Shown here piece after piece: positions 7,791 to 17,451 of a stretch of DNA of 23,463 bases. A program made the position numbers and the translations under genes. Below the pieces are notes generated by a model. The model was not told the DNA's origin. It saw nothing but the letters and a program-made list of their open reading frames with translations, and did no database searches. The DNA is taken from the IMG/VR virus record IMGVR_UViG_3300032087_001960, positions 1 through 23,463 of that record, one strand, 5' to 3'. How positions within the stretch are numbered: position 1 is the stretch's first letter; each line of letters opens with the position of its first letter. Source of the DNA: a virus.

Positions 7791-8570
7791 CTAAGCTACG
7801 TCTGATAAATCAATAGACTCGTTAGCTTGCTTAGTCATAGTGACTGCAGATTTGATGGAAGTATCAACTACGTTGTTGTAGTTCCACTCTGCAAGTCTTT
7901 GTAGTCTCAATTCTACTTGAGTCTTGACTCTCTCTTGTTTAATGGAGACGTCTTTAAGACCAAAGTCAGAATCGATTTTAACTAGAGCTGCTTTAAGCAT
8001 CCTAGCTTTTCTACCAAGCTGAAGCATTTTATCTTCACGCTCAATGAGCCACTCAGGTATTTCCTTTGTTGGATCCTGTTCAGACATGGACTCTTTGTAT
8101 TCGTAAACAATAGATACGAACTCAGCCCATGTTCTAGTGGCTAGTTGCAAGAAGTTGATGCCAGTTGTTTGTGGGTCAACTTCTAATAATGGCTTTTGAC
8201 CAAGAACGATAGACTCGACTTGCATATCAAAGTACTCTTTCTCTTTAACAGCTAAGTCTGCATCGTCTTTGTTAAAAACTTGCTCCGTGTCAATCTTCTC
8301 ATTGAAGATTTTCATTGTAGCAACCACTCTGCTTGGATTGAAGGTTGGTTTACCTTCGTTGTCAAGCATGTACTTTTTGTAGAAGTAGTCAGGCAAAACA
8401 ATATCGTCTTGCGCGTCTCTTCTTTCTGAGCCTTCAGGGTCACCCATGGTGTCTGGAGCCCAAGCCTCTTCTGGAGTTTTTTGTGGTGGCAGTAGCTCAC
8501 CAGTTTCCCCATTAGCCATATCAATTTCTACTTTGACATCTGATGGGTCAAAAAATGTATTATCACTCAT
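7791..8570 (-). CDS. Hypothetical protein, 259 aa, acidic and helical
   Basis: Not recognised. The first 50 residues are acidic and probably disordered (SDNTFFDPSDVKVEIDMANG). The rest is strongly charged and helical, with likely coiled coils at about 160-230 (EDKMLQLGRKARMLKAALVK; VKTQVELRLQRLAEW). No membrane segment or catalytic motif. ATG at 8570 overlaps the stop of the 46-aa gene (ATGA) and has AAGGAGG about 7 nt upstream. It is one of the larger early products, directly downstream of the TGTAACA repeat region, so a replication or DNA-binding role is possible but unproven. Confidence 0.75.
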   Translation of the reverse strand: MSDNTFFDPSDVKVEIDMANGETGELLPPQKTPEEAWAPDTMGDPEGSERRDAQDDIVLPDYFYKKYMLDNEGKPTFNPSRVVATMKIFNEKIDTEQVFNKDDADLAVKEKEYFDMQVESIVLGQKPLLEVDPQTTGINFLQLATRTWAEFVSIVYEYKESMSEQDPTKEIPEWLIEREDKMLQLGRKARMLKAALVKIDSDFGLKDVSIKQERVKTQVELRLQRLAEWNYNNVVDTSIKSAVTMTKQANESIDLSDVA

Positions 8571-8756: not shown

Positions 8757-8788
8757 GAACCTAAAACAACGCTCCCACGGAGCGTTGT
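8757..8788 (-). terminator. Strong hairpin with U tract at the head of the leftward operon
   Basis: Ten-bp perfect stem ACAACGCTCC (8766-8775) / GGAGCGTTGT (8779-8788) with a 3-nt loop. Read leftward it is followed by TTTTAGGTTCTTTTT, a good intrinsic-terminator layout. It stands between the TGTAACA array and the first gene of the operon (8707). Any transcript starting in the array region must cross it, so it may act as a leader terminator overcome by antitermination, or the operon may start from a promoter in the AT-rich 8708-8756 segment. Confidence 0.65.
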
Positions 8789-8790
8789 AC

Positions 8791-9117
8791 TGTAACATTT
8801 GAACGTAGTAATGCGGGTTTGCGGGCGATGTTACAGAACGTTACAGCTAAATTTAGAGAAGTGTAACATCTGTAAACGCCCGTGGTTATAAGGTTTATAG
8901 CCTATAAATTGAGAAATGTTACATGTTACAGTAAAAAACGGTTTAGAAGCCAAGAATCATGGTCGACGGTCGGTAAGGTACAACCTGCTATCTTGAACAA
9001 GTGTAACACTGTAACATTTGATGTGCCTGCACGCCTGAAACTATTGCTACGACTGGCATAGCGCATGTTACAGATACCTGTTACAGATGGTGCATTTTAG
9101 CTGTAACAGCTGTAACA
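8791..9117. repeat. TGTAACA iteron-like array: candidate replication origin or regulator array
   Basis: This is the main content of the 511-bp non-coding stretch 8708-9219. Eleven exact copies of the 7-mer occur in 327 bp. Forward (TGTAACA) starts: 8791, 8862, 9002, 9010, 9102, 9111. Reverse (TGTTACA) starts: 8829, 8917, 8924, 9066, 9079. Near copies lie at 8839 (CGTTACA) and 8871 (TGTAAAC). The extended consensus is CTGTAACAT. Several are paired: 8917/8924 abut directly, 9002/9010 are 8 bp apart, and 9102/9111 are 9 bp apart. A perfect AT-rich palindrome TTTATAG-C-CTATAAA (8894-8908) lies inside the array and could be an easily melted site. No reading frame of note was found. Origin or operator array is inference. 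Confidence 0.75.
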
Positions 9118-9167: not shown

Positions 9168-9193
9168 ATAAAAAAAAGCCCCATTGCGGGGCT
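9168..9193 (-). terminator. Intrinsic terminator of the 9220-9646 leftward unit
   Basis: Stem AGCCCC / GGGGCT (9177-9182 and 9188-9193), loop GCAAT in the minus-strand reading, followed leftward by an unbroken run of eight U (encoded by the A-run ending at 9177, counted with the stem base), then ATAAAA. It lies 26 bp past the stop at 9220 and closes the short two-gene unit before the TGTAACA array. Confidence 0.9.
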
Positions 9194-9219
9194 ATGATAG
9201 TAGTAGGTAGGATAAGGGA

Positions 9220-14659: not shown

Positions 14660-15724
14660 ATGGCGAAAAAAGAAGAAAACAGAGAAGTGAATGAGCTGGT
14701 CATGGACAGAATGCCAGGAGCAGATGCAATTTCAGAAGAAGAAACAAAACCTTTTGAAGTTGATCTAAATTTTGAAGAAGAGCCTAAGGATGAGGAGCCA
14801 GAAAATGAAGAAGTCTCAGAAGAAACTAACTCCCTTGCAGAAGAAGAAGTTGTTGAAGAAGAATCTGAACAGCAAAAAGAAGAAGAAAAATCTCCAGAAC
14901 CAGAAGCTTCAAGCGAAGAAGTCGTGGATGGAGAAAGCGAAGATGCTCCACAACCAGATATTCAGCCAGCTGAAGGAAGCGATGAACACGTTGCCGAAGA
15001 AGTAAACCAACAAAAACCACCTATGGTACCAAAATCAAGGTTGGATGAGGTTTTAGCAAAGCAAAAAGCATTACAAAAACAGTTAGATGAGATAAATCAG
15101 TCTAAACAAGAGCTAGAAAATGCTCCAGAATATGATTTTGCAGCAAAAGAAGCAGAATATCAGCAATTAGTGCTAGATGGCGAGGCTGATAAGGCAGTAA
15201 ATCTTAGAAATGAGATAAGAAATGCTGAAAAAGACCAATTTATGTTTGAAGTACAACAAAAAATGGGTCAAACAGTCCAACAAAGCCAAGAAGTAACAGC
15301 TTTACAAGCAAAAGCGGCTGAAATAGAAGCTAAATTTTCTGTTTTAAATGAAAATAGTGTTGATTTTAATGCTGACTTACAAAATGAAGTGATCGAATTG
15401 CGTAATGCATTCATGACTCAGGGTTATGCACCTGCTGATGCTTTAGAAAAAGCTACAAATTACACTTTAGCGGTAAAAGAACCCACTTTGTTACAGTCAG
15501 AACCTGTTGCTCCTACACCTAAAGTAGAAGACAAGGTAGTTGAGAAGAAAAAAGTAGCTAATATTAATAAAAAATTGAAAGCTGCAGAGTCTCAACCGCC
15601 TGAAATGAAAGGAGAAGGCGCTAGAGGTGAGAAAAAAGTAGATTTAAACACGTTATCTGACGATGAATTTAGTGCATTACCAGAAGAAACTTTACGTAGA
15701 CTACGTGGTGACTTTGGCACTTAG
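14660..15724 (+). CDS. Probable capsid scaffolding protein
   Basis: 354 aa. Expected to guide procapsid assembly and then leave. The first 110 residues are extremely acidic and rich in Glu/Pro/Ser (many EE pairs), so probably disordered. Residues 115-235 are charged helices likely to form coiled coil (RLDEVLAKQKALQKQLDEIN), and the C-terminal part is basic (KVANINKKLKAA), as expected for a shell-binding tail. The call rests on this architecture and its position between portal and capsid; sequence alone does not define the family. AGGAGG 9 nt before ATG 14660. Confidence 0.85.
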   Translation: MAKKEENREVNELVMDRMPGADAISEEETKPFEVDLNFEEEPKDEEPENEEVSEETNSLAEEEVVEEESEQQKEEEKSPEPEASSEEVVDGESEDAPQPDIQPAEGSDEHVAEEVNQQKPPMVPKSRLDEVLAKQKALQKQLDEINQSKQELENAPEYDFAAKEAEYQQLVLDGEADKAVNLRNEIRNAEKDQFMFEVQQKMGQTVQQSQEVTALQAKAAEIEAKFSVLNENSVDFNADLQNEVIELRNAFMTQGYAPADALEKATNYTLAVKEPTLLQSEPVAPTPKVEDKVVEKKKVANINKKLKAAESQPPEMKGEGARGEKKVDLNTLSDDEFSALPEETLRRLRGDFGT

Positions 15725-15936: not shown

Positions 15937-17082
15937 ATGGCTAATACAAACTTTTCATCACTGACCAGTGAACAGCTTACTATCTGGTCTCGTGATTTTT
16001 GGCGTGTCGCTAGAAATATGTCCTTCATTAACCAATTCGCGGGTAGCGGACCTAACGCAATGGTTCAGAGAATATCTGAGCTTACTCAATCAGAAAAAGG
16101 AGCTAGAGCTGTATTAACACTTTTAGCTGACATGACTGGTGATGGTATTGTTGGGGACAACACTCTTGAAGGTAATGAAGAAACATTAAGAGCTTACGAC
16201 ATCGTCGTACAACTTGATCAATTAAGATTTGCGAATAGACTTGCGGGTAGATTAGCAGATCAAAAATCAGTTGTAAATTTCCGTGAGCACTCAAGAGACG
16301 CTCTTGCTTATGCAATGGCTGATAGAATAGACCAATTAGCGTTTTTAACGCTTTCTGGCATTAACTACACACTGAAAAACAGTGGTGCATTAAGACCTGT
16401 CCTAACTTCTGGACAAAATCTTGGTGACCTTGCGTTTGGAGGTGACATCACAGCACCAACTTCTAACAGACATAGAAGATGGGATGCAACTTCAGGCTTA
16501 GTAGCTGGTGACGTAACTGCTGTAGCAGCTGCGGATACAATCACTTATGAATGTATCGTTGCTCTAAAAGCTTATGCTAAAGATAACTATATCAGAGGCG
16601 TAAGAGGTGCTGGTGGAGAAGAGGTATATCACCTTTTCGTATCTCCACAAGTAATGGCTGACCTTAAACTTGACTCAGATTTTCTTGCTAACGTAAGAAA
16701 CGCTGGTGTAAGAGGACCAAGTAACTCATTGTTCTCAGGTTCTTCAAGCTTAATGGTTGATGGAGTTATGATCCATGAGTTTAGACATGTATTTAATACA
16801 GCTAATGCTCTTACTGGAACATCTTCAAATGCCGGTTCTGCTGGATATAAGTGGGGCGCTGACGCTGACGTCAACGGTTCTGCTTCTTTATTCTGTGGAG
16901 CACAAGCTCTTGCTATGGCTGATATCGGATTACCTGAAATAGTTGAAGATACATTTGACTATGGTAACCAAAATGGTATTTCCATCGGTAAGATCTTTGG
17001 TCTTAAGAAGCCTAAGTTCAACAGTGACTATAATAGTTCAACTGAAGACTTTGGTGTTATCAGACTGGATGTTGCATACTAA
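15937..17082 (+). CDS. Major capsid protein, N4-gp56 type (HK97 fold)
   Basis: 381 aa. Builds the icosahedral shell. Recognised from the N4-gp56/Phage_capsid_3 pattern: the N-terminal WSRDFWRVARNMSFINQF region, DMTGDGIVGDNTLEGNEE (about 67-84), RLAGRLADQKSVVNFREHSR (about 103-122) and the C-terminal region with EVYHLFVSPQVMADLK and VDGVMIHEFRHV. Short for the family but with all conserved blocks. GGAGGG 5-6 nt before ATG. It has a private promoter and structured leader upstream and a strong terminator after it, fitting the high copy number needed. Confidence 0.96.
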   Translation: MANTNFSSLTSEQLTIWSRDFWRVARNMSFINQFAGSGPNAMVQRISELTQSEKGARAVLTLLADMTGDGIVGDNTLEGNEETLRAYDIVVQLDQLRFANRLAGRLADQKSVVNFREHSRDALAYAMADRIDQLAFLTLSGINYTLKNSGALRPVLTSGQNLGDLAFGGDITAPTSNRHRRWDATSGLVAGDVTAVAAADTITYECIVALKAYAKDNYIRGVRGAGGEEVYHLFVSPQVMADLKLDSDFLANVRNAGVRGPSNSLFSGSSSLMVDGVMIHEFRHVFNTANALTGTSSNAGSAGYKWGADADVNGSASLFCGAQALAMADIGLPEIVEDTFDYGNQNGISIGKIFGLKKPKFNSDYNSSTEDFGVIRLDVAY

Positions 17083-17092
17083 GTATGTATTC

Positions 17093-17126
17093 TTGGGTGG
17101 TTCAATTTCGAGCCACCCAACTTTTA
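17093..17126 (+). terminator. Intrinsic terminator after the capsid gene
   Basis: Stem of up to 11 bp: TTGGGTGGTTC (17093-17103) with GAGCCACCCAA (17110-17120, one G-U pair), loop AATTTC, then CTTTTATT. It lies 11 bp past the capsid stop. The next gene begins at 17140, so read-through or a separate start is needed for the connector genes. Confidence 0.85.
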
Positions 17127-17139
17127 TTAGGAGAAAAAA

Positions 17140-17451
17140 GTGATAATAATTTCAGATATTGATAGATATATTTCAACTACATGGGGCGCTTCAATTAGAT
17201 TAGAAGCTGGGGTACCAAAAAGTGTGGGAGAAGATATTGGGTTGGTTTGTTTACAAGAAGGTTGTAAAAGGGTTGAAGAAGACAGCAAACCAGTTGATAA
17301 TAAAATAGAGATTGAAGTCAAAGAAGAATCAATTAATTTTGAAGATATGACTAAAATCGAACTAGAAGAATATGGTAGAACTATCGGTATAGAACTCGAT
17401 AGAAGAAAAAAGAAATCAGATTTAATTGAGGAATTAAACGCAGCAGGGTAG
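17140..17451 (+). CDS. Small virion-module protein, 103 aa, with C-terminal HeH/SAP-like helical motif
   Basis: GTG start with TTAGGAG 7-8 nt upstream. The first third (MIIISDIDRYISTTWGASIR...) is mixed; the middle is acidic and Lys/Glu-rich. The last 35 residues (MTKIELEEYGRTIGIELDRR, then KKKSDLIEELNAAG) match the helix-extended-helix (HeH, SAP/LEM-like) motif found at the C-termini of many phage head proteins, usually with a nucleic-acid or partner-binding role. Placed between capsid and connector, so probably a head-completion or head-tail joining protein; the exact role is unknown. Confidence 0.7.
   Translation: MIIISDIDRYISTTWGASIRLEAGVPKSVGEDIGLVCLQEGCKRVEEDSKPVDNKIEIEVKEESINFEDMTKIELEEYGRTIGIELDRRKKKSDLIEELNAAG

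Follow-up and report, generated by a model that had tools for sequence, protein, structure and literature searches.

An array of heptamers in an aquatic phage genome as a probable iteron-type replication origin, with the winged helix of an NrS-1-type primase-helicase as its candidate reader

The best described counterparts of the locus reported here are origins at which short repeats are recognized by a dedicated initiator. In phage P4, the origin repeats are bound by the winged helix of the multifunctional primase-helicase alpha, with unwinding and priming as the next steps (PMC4234260, citing Yeo 2002), and the primase of alpha is of the Toprim type (PMC4234260). The origins of PICI satellites have two iteron sets that flank an AT-rich region (PMC6092414), and in the PLE satellites of Vibrio cholerae the DNA-binding domain of the RepA initiator co-varies with the origin, its repeated swaps being cognate-specific (PMC8263062). 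In phage NrS-1, TTTGGTTA is the recognition site established for the phage polymerase (PMC8718748). Copies of this recognition sequence in the centre of the NrS-1 genome, counted as two, were suggested as a possible origin, and the fold of the polymerase Tail domain was reported as novel (PMC7102993). The published sequence recognition by NrS-1 polymerase resides in the N-terminal half and involves a single-stranded template, not the winged helix. Here we describe a heptamer array at which, judging from comparisons of sequences, a widespread group of aquatic phages very probably starts its DNA replication; the origin would be of the iteron type and bound by the winged helix of its initiator. 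Overall such an origin would work like the iteron origins of P4 alpha, PICI and PLE, but with an initiator of a different family (NrS-1/DUF5906-type).

The window (the whole stretch of 23,463 bases of DNA that was analysed) is a tailed-phage genome. Its replication genes, among them a family-A DNA polymerase and a MoxR/VWA pair, point leftward, and those for terminase, portal and capsid point rightward. The array lies upstream of the leftward operon where the two gene clusters diverge, and is adjoined by a leftward gene (7791-8570, minus strand) encoding a 259-residue protein that matched no known protein family. The record is probably a fragment, and both it and its nearest relatives stop before the gene of the initiator described below. 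A nucleotide-level search of isolate phages with the window gave no match.

Counted on either strand, TGTAACA has 13 exact copies in the window, 11 of them within the 327 bp from 8791 to 9117 and the other two at 15489 and 18537. This is the count that the first-pass annotation had given, its pair spacings of 7, 8, 9 and 13 bp were likewise correct, and nowhere else in the window does the heptamer reach an equal density. Across 300 first-order Markov simulations, no 327-bp stretch had more than three copies of TGTAACA, and in 40 simulated windows the most clustered 7-mer reached five copies per 327 bp. The clustering is far beyond chance. The exact copies (TGTTACA/TGTAACA, array assigned to the minus strand) occupy 8791-8797, 8829-8835, 8862-8868, 8917-8923 and 8924-8930 in the left part of the array and 9002-9008, 9010-9016, 9066-9072, 9079-9085, 9102-9108 and 9111-9117 in the right part. 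A twelfth, imperfect heptamer with one mismatch (TGTAACG on the leftward strand) lies at 8839-8845 on the minus strand and is exact in two relatives (L017 and L025).

Between the inner site pairs lies a core, GACCGTCGACC (8961-8971, minus strand), and the same element is present in all four heptamer types described below. In many relatives the core has GACCGT(C/G) as a direct repeat with 7-bp spacing (GACCGTGGACCGTGG), which may be the site of a second protein. The candidate duplex-unwinding element is the segment at 8926-8957 (minus strand), placed by its position at +14 to +45 from the core and by the AT content of this position across types A-D; in the window itself the segment is only modestly AT-rich, weaker than in the types as a whole. 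Leftward terminator-like hairpins bound the array on its right edge (9177-9193, minus strand) and left edge (8766-8788, minus strand), and as terminator-like hairpins the two leftward terminators of the first-pass annotation are real. A conserved flank element, ACTACTATCA, adjoins the array at 9195-9204 (minus strand). It belongs to an element, ACTACTATCAT, that is conserved beside most arrays of types A-D (window 9195-9204, L007, L019, L058-L065 and L102) and is often doubled and followed by a short hairpin (CACGNNGTG). The AT-rich palindrome noted in the first reading, TTTATAGCCTATAAA, is indeed present at 8894-8908 (no strand assigned), but it sits within an insertion absent from most relatives and is not part of the core. 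The region had also been called devoid of coding potential; it holds no ORF longer than one of 59 residues (8882-9061, plus strand), but that ORF does overlap the array, probably by chance. The proposed inflection in cumulative GC skew was found as a minimum at about 8-9 kb of the window, but gene direction also diverges there, and thus the minimum is not independent evidence and was given no weight.

Relatives were sought with the 259-residue neighbour protein as bait, which gave 16 loci. In most of these the array occupied the corresponding position and had 10-12 exact copies, its intervals kept although the DNA between the copies had diverged; loss of the array in close relatives, which would have told against the first-pass reading, did not occur. 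Two loci at first taken for arrayless relatives (L007 and L019) carry arrays of other heptamers about 2 kb further upstream. In one record (L018/G007) the array ends after two copies and the initiator gene is full of stop codons and frameshifts, and this record looks decayed or badly assembled. The conserved parts of the locus (core, flank element and repeats) were also used as queries, and these searches gave the heptamer versions set out next.

The heptamer exists in at least four versions: type A, TGTTACA (the window); type B, TGTTCCA; type C, GGTTCCA; and type D, TGTACCA. Each genome was typed by its dominant copy, some copies in type C arrays still being TGTTCCA. The roughly 12 copies of an array switch type in concert, as expected for a binder acting in trans. 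All types keep a GACCGTSGACC core followed by a stretch of 73-79% AT between the inner repeat pairs, and in none of the types is any other segment between sites as AT-rich as that from +14 to +45. Relative to the core, sites lie at about -143, -134, -43 and -34 in one orientation, at +47 and +56 in the opposite one and then at about +99 and +121, and these positions and orientations recur in types A-D with small shifts. In one relative (L008/L039), each of the six heptamers to one side of the core has its central base flipped (TGTTACA to TGTAACA and the reverse), whereas none to the other side has. Matches to the type D pattern such as those of L264 were discarded as collagen-like coding repeats. 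A symmetric TGTWACA operator does not hold in general, since three of the versions (TGTTCCA, GGTTCCA and TGTACCA) lack the palindromic form, and that reading was rejected.

All long array-bearing relatives examined encode a leftward protein of about 820 residues with a DUF5906 (PF19263) domain, its gene lying about 10 kb from the array. The protein matches the C-terminal region of NrS-1 polymerase (6k9c/6k9e, E 1.7e-34), and counterparts homologous to the SF3 ring helicase and the Tail domain of the NrS-1 type are both present. It is homologous to the NrS-1 primase-polymerase and carries a DUF5906/SF3 helicase. Matches of the N-terminal half to the AEP PrimPol fold were weak and came from a low-confidence full-length model. 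The C-terminal domain has a winged-helix layout in its AlphaFold model (pLDDT 86.8), and its nearest solved structure was the NrS-1 Tail (Z 7.5), followed by many winged-helix proteins including ORC subunits, all with middling scores. The P4 origin-binding domain was absent from the fold lists, which counts neither way. The D5_N domain (PF08706) was found in none of 17 genomes, DUF5906 being found instead, and for this reason we did not file the protein as a member of the P4 alpha family. Among isolates of the phage collection, the nearest initiator has only about 31% identity. The sole match of the initiator in the genome collection is a 60.8-kb contig (L354, PBPT01000002.1) of a Candidatus Neomarinimicrobiota metagenome-assembled genome, a weak hint either at the host or at a phage binned with it. 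For the window phage itself the partner of the array would be the DUF5906 protein, as judged from relatives that are 57-85% identical in the neighbour gene. The first-pass annotation had looked for the binder among the small nearby proteins or in host DnaA; the protein that co-varies with the array is instead this large primase-helicase.

The co-variation was followed in protein alignments of six, then 25 and then 31 genomes of known heptamer. The wing of the C-terminal domain reads TTAVKRI----QSKTVRGVV in type A, KT.RKR.SADKNASIPRGVV in type B, KTARKR.SKDR.AGIPRGVV in type C and TTRKR.G..K.SSAPRGV in type D. In a sliding-window scan along the initiator that kept full-length distance constant, it was the residues of wing and recognition helix (766-800) that tracked the heptamer across recombinant backbones, with the peak at 766-790 and a partial r of 0.72, against a median over windows of -0.01. 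The association was matched in 0 of 5000 label permutations, which model relatedness incompletely. The association survives phylogeny: a tree of initiator residues 1-640 has five changes of heptamer type, and strongly supported branches make each of A, B and C polyphyletic. Two genomes outside the derivation of the rule agreed with it: the wing was read first, as type B in G117 and type D in G119, and TGTTCCA and TGTACCA arrays, respectively, were then found. These comparisons point to the winged helix of the primase-helicase as the part that would read the repeats. Heptamer position 5 (A versus C) may pair with residue 777 (non-Arg versus Arg); at position 1, T may go with Lys and G with Arg at wing residue 784. 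Further variants of recognition helix and wing (NVLIKRKR, ITTTRKRIGGDARTSAPRG) occur in the initiators of L200, L204-L206, L301 and L328-L332. No array was found on the contigs of these L200 and L332 groups to pair with their wings; the variants probably reflect more heptamer types or new ways of reading the known ones.

Type A comprises two independent initiator lineages, represented by G005 and G006. Over residues 1-636, most 40-residue blocks of G005 share 72-100% identity with the closest non-A relative, nearly always the type C genome G008, and among the other shared proteins G005 is nearest to G008 in most and to G006 in none. G005 nonetheless shares with G006 both the TGTTACA array and the wing. 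As array and wing lie about 10 kb apart, they match without the intervening genes matching.

Arrays of related heptamers were also found in described phages. In NrS-1 (L371, AB746912) all 11 GTTACAC copies lie at 17,062-17,377, in the 400 bp that immediately follow the 3' end of the polymerase gene, and all 11 copies of GTTACACTT in the genome fall in this same array, at 17,061-17,378. The record holds a single exact TTTGGTTA, on the minus strand at 17,198 inside the array. The ORF annotated there (NRS1_29) is low-complexity sequence and probably no real gene. KPP25 was once set down as arrayless, since a coding GC repeat had hidden its arrays; it has two TGTTACGA arrays of eight and five copies (L097, 26394-26825, and L372, record 58257-58542), which carry TCGTGACA repeats, each around a 60-mer of 83% AT. 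Possibly these are two origins, or an origin and a second copy as in P4. The NrS-1 and KPP25 proteins have a short wing that, like that of type A, is without Arg at the equivalent of residue 777, and both heptamers have A at position 5; this agreement with the rule counts as a hint, owing to the weak alignment at such remote distance. No clear array was seen in phiA008. TGTWACA arrays touch VapE-like helicase genes in two phages unrelated to the window (L031, 2643-2826; L053, 7538-7720). The first-pass annotation knew of no described phage element with this motif. That holds insofar as we found no description of the NrS-1 and KPP25 arrays in the open-licence literature, where the NrS-1 recognition sites are discussed and the array is not, but iteron origins are a known kind of element and these two phages have related heptamers.

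The proposal of a phage replication origin, already made in the first reading, is well supported by the conserved iteron architecture, the AT-rich segment between the inner pairs and the co-variation with an initiator-type protein. As at iteron origins, short repeats are clustered in a non-coding region, an AT-rich stretch lies between iterons and the replicons of the relatives encode an initiator. In the mechanism we propose, about 12 iterons in a fixed order of orientations, with two inner pairs flanking the GC-rich core and the AT-rich stretch, would be the platform onto which the winged helix docks the initiator. Hexameric helicase rings, loaded thereby to either side, would melt the AT-rich stretch. 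DNA synthesis on the exposed strands would then be started by the primase part and extended by the family-A DNA polymerase of the phage. A change of heptamer would force a change of wing, and origin and initiator would evolve as a lock-and-key pair.

The position of the array, upstream of the leftward operon and at the divergence of the two gene clusters, would also suit an operator, at which the primase-helicase or a different protein binds the heptamers and so turns the leftward early operon on or off, while replication starts elsewhere. Initiators often regulate their own operon, and binding at the array could regulate the leftward operon as well. We nevertheless consider an operator without an origin unlikely, as what co-varies is no repressor but a primase-helicase that has a ring ATPase, the AT-rich segment between the inner iteron pairs is conserved, terminators bound the array on both sides in the window, and the equivalent array of NrS-1, which contains the polymerase recognition site, lies 3' of the polymerase gene.

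The alternating orientations, by which copies can pair, together with the flips in L008 prompted another reading, that of a leftward structured non-coding RNA in which inverted heptamers form the stems of a transcript between the two terminators. Some changes between L008, L009 and the window appear compensatory, but the window had no Rfam match and the flanks of paired heptamers paired no better than when shuffled (0.39, 0.51 and 0.54 observed versus 0.40, 0.53 and 0.54), the outermost pair giving 0.64 versus 0.60. The ++/-- pairing order is moreover broken in type D arrays, and all copies change at once, in co-variation with a DNA-binding protein domain. On flank covariation, type D order and protein co-variation we rejected the RNA structure, which we regard as highly improbable. 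Equally hard to credit is a partition, packaging or recombination site (parS-like, pac-like or cos-adjacent repeats): clustered short repeats near the terminase side of the genome could serve such a function, but in the comparison made, which was with the primase-helicase, the heptamer tracks the winged helix of that protein, and the NrS-1 and VapE-adjacent arrays lie beside replication genes.

An iteron origin read by the primase-helicase, the reading we prefer, resembles the P4 ori/crr system in joining origin repeats to a C-terminal winged helix on a multifunctional primase-helicase, although here the binding is predicted. It differs from P4 alpha in that the initiator is of the DUF5906/NrS-1 type with a possibly PrimPol-like N-terminus and in that four heptamer versions occur on one scaffold. 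The likeness to NrS-1 (primase-polymerase structures 6k9c and 6lrb) comprises the homologous SF3 ring and Tail and a GGTTACA-type array beside the NrS-1 gene that includes the polymerase recognition site. NrS-1, however, is a temperate siphovirus with its array directly 3' of the gene, whereas here some 10 kb separate the two. The pri-rep-ori modules of PICI/SaPI belong to satellite islands, with the ori 3' of rep and other initiator proteins, whereas this array is in a phage genome. RepA of PLE is the direct precedent for an initiator DNA-binding domain that co-varies with its origin, but it is an initiator of the RepA_N type that acts on semi-palindromic iterons of about 30 bp and changes by exchange of the whole domain; in the present phages it is a few residues of the winged helix that follow the repeat.

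A wider joint reading, which we offer tentatively and as a possibility that may well prove wrong, is that heptamer and wing form a swappable lock-and-key code, with the residue pairings given above, that has been switched repeatedly in nature, and that NrS-1-type iterons have a dual use. Switching the code would perhaps keep satellites and co-infecting relatives off the initiator of the phage. For NrS-1-type PrimPols the iterons may be both docking sites of the winged helix and template start sites for primer-free synthesis.

For a phage group present in dozens of uncultured contigs, the probable origin, its initiator and the residues that would read the repeats were thus identified from sequence alone. 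The group offers at least four naturally occurring origin specificities, all built on one scaffold and each paired with its own winged-helix sequence, and hence a system for testing how initiator and origin change together. The comparison also proposes an origin for NrS-1 and, for the Tail of NrS-1 polymerase, a function, that of sequence-specific origin binding.
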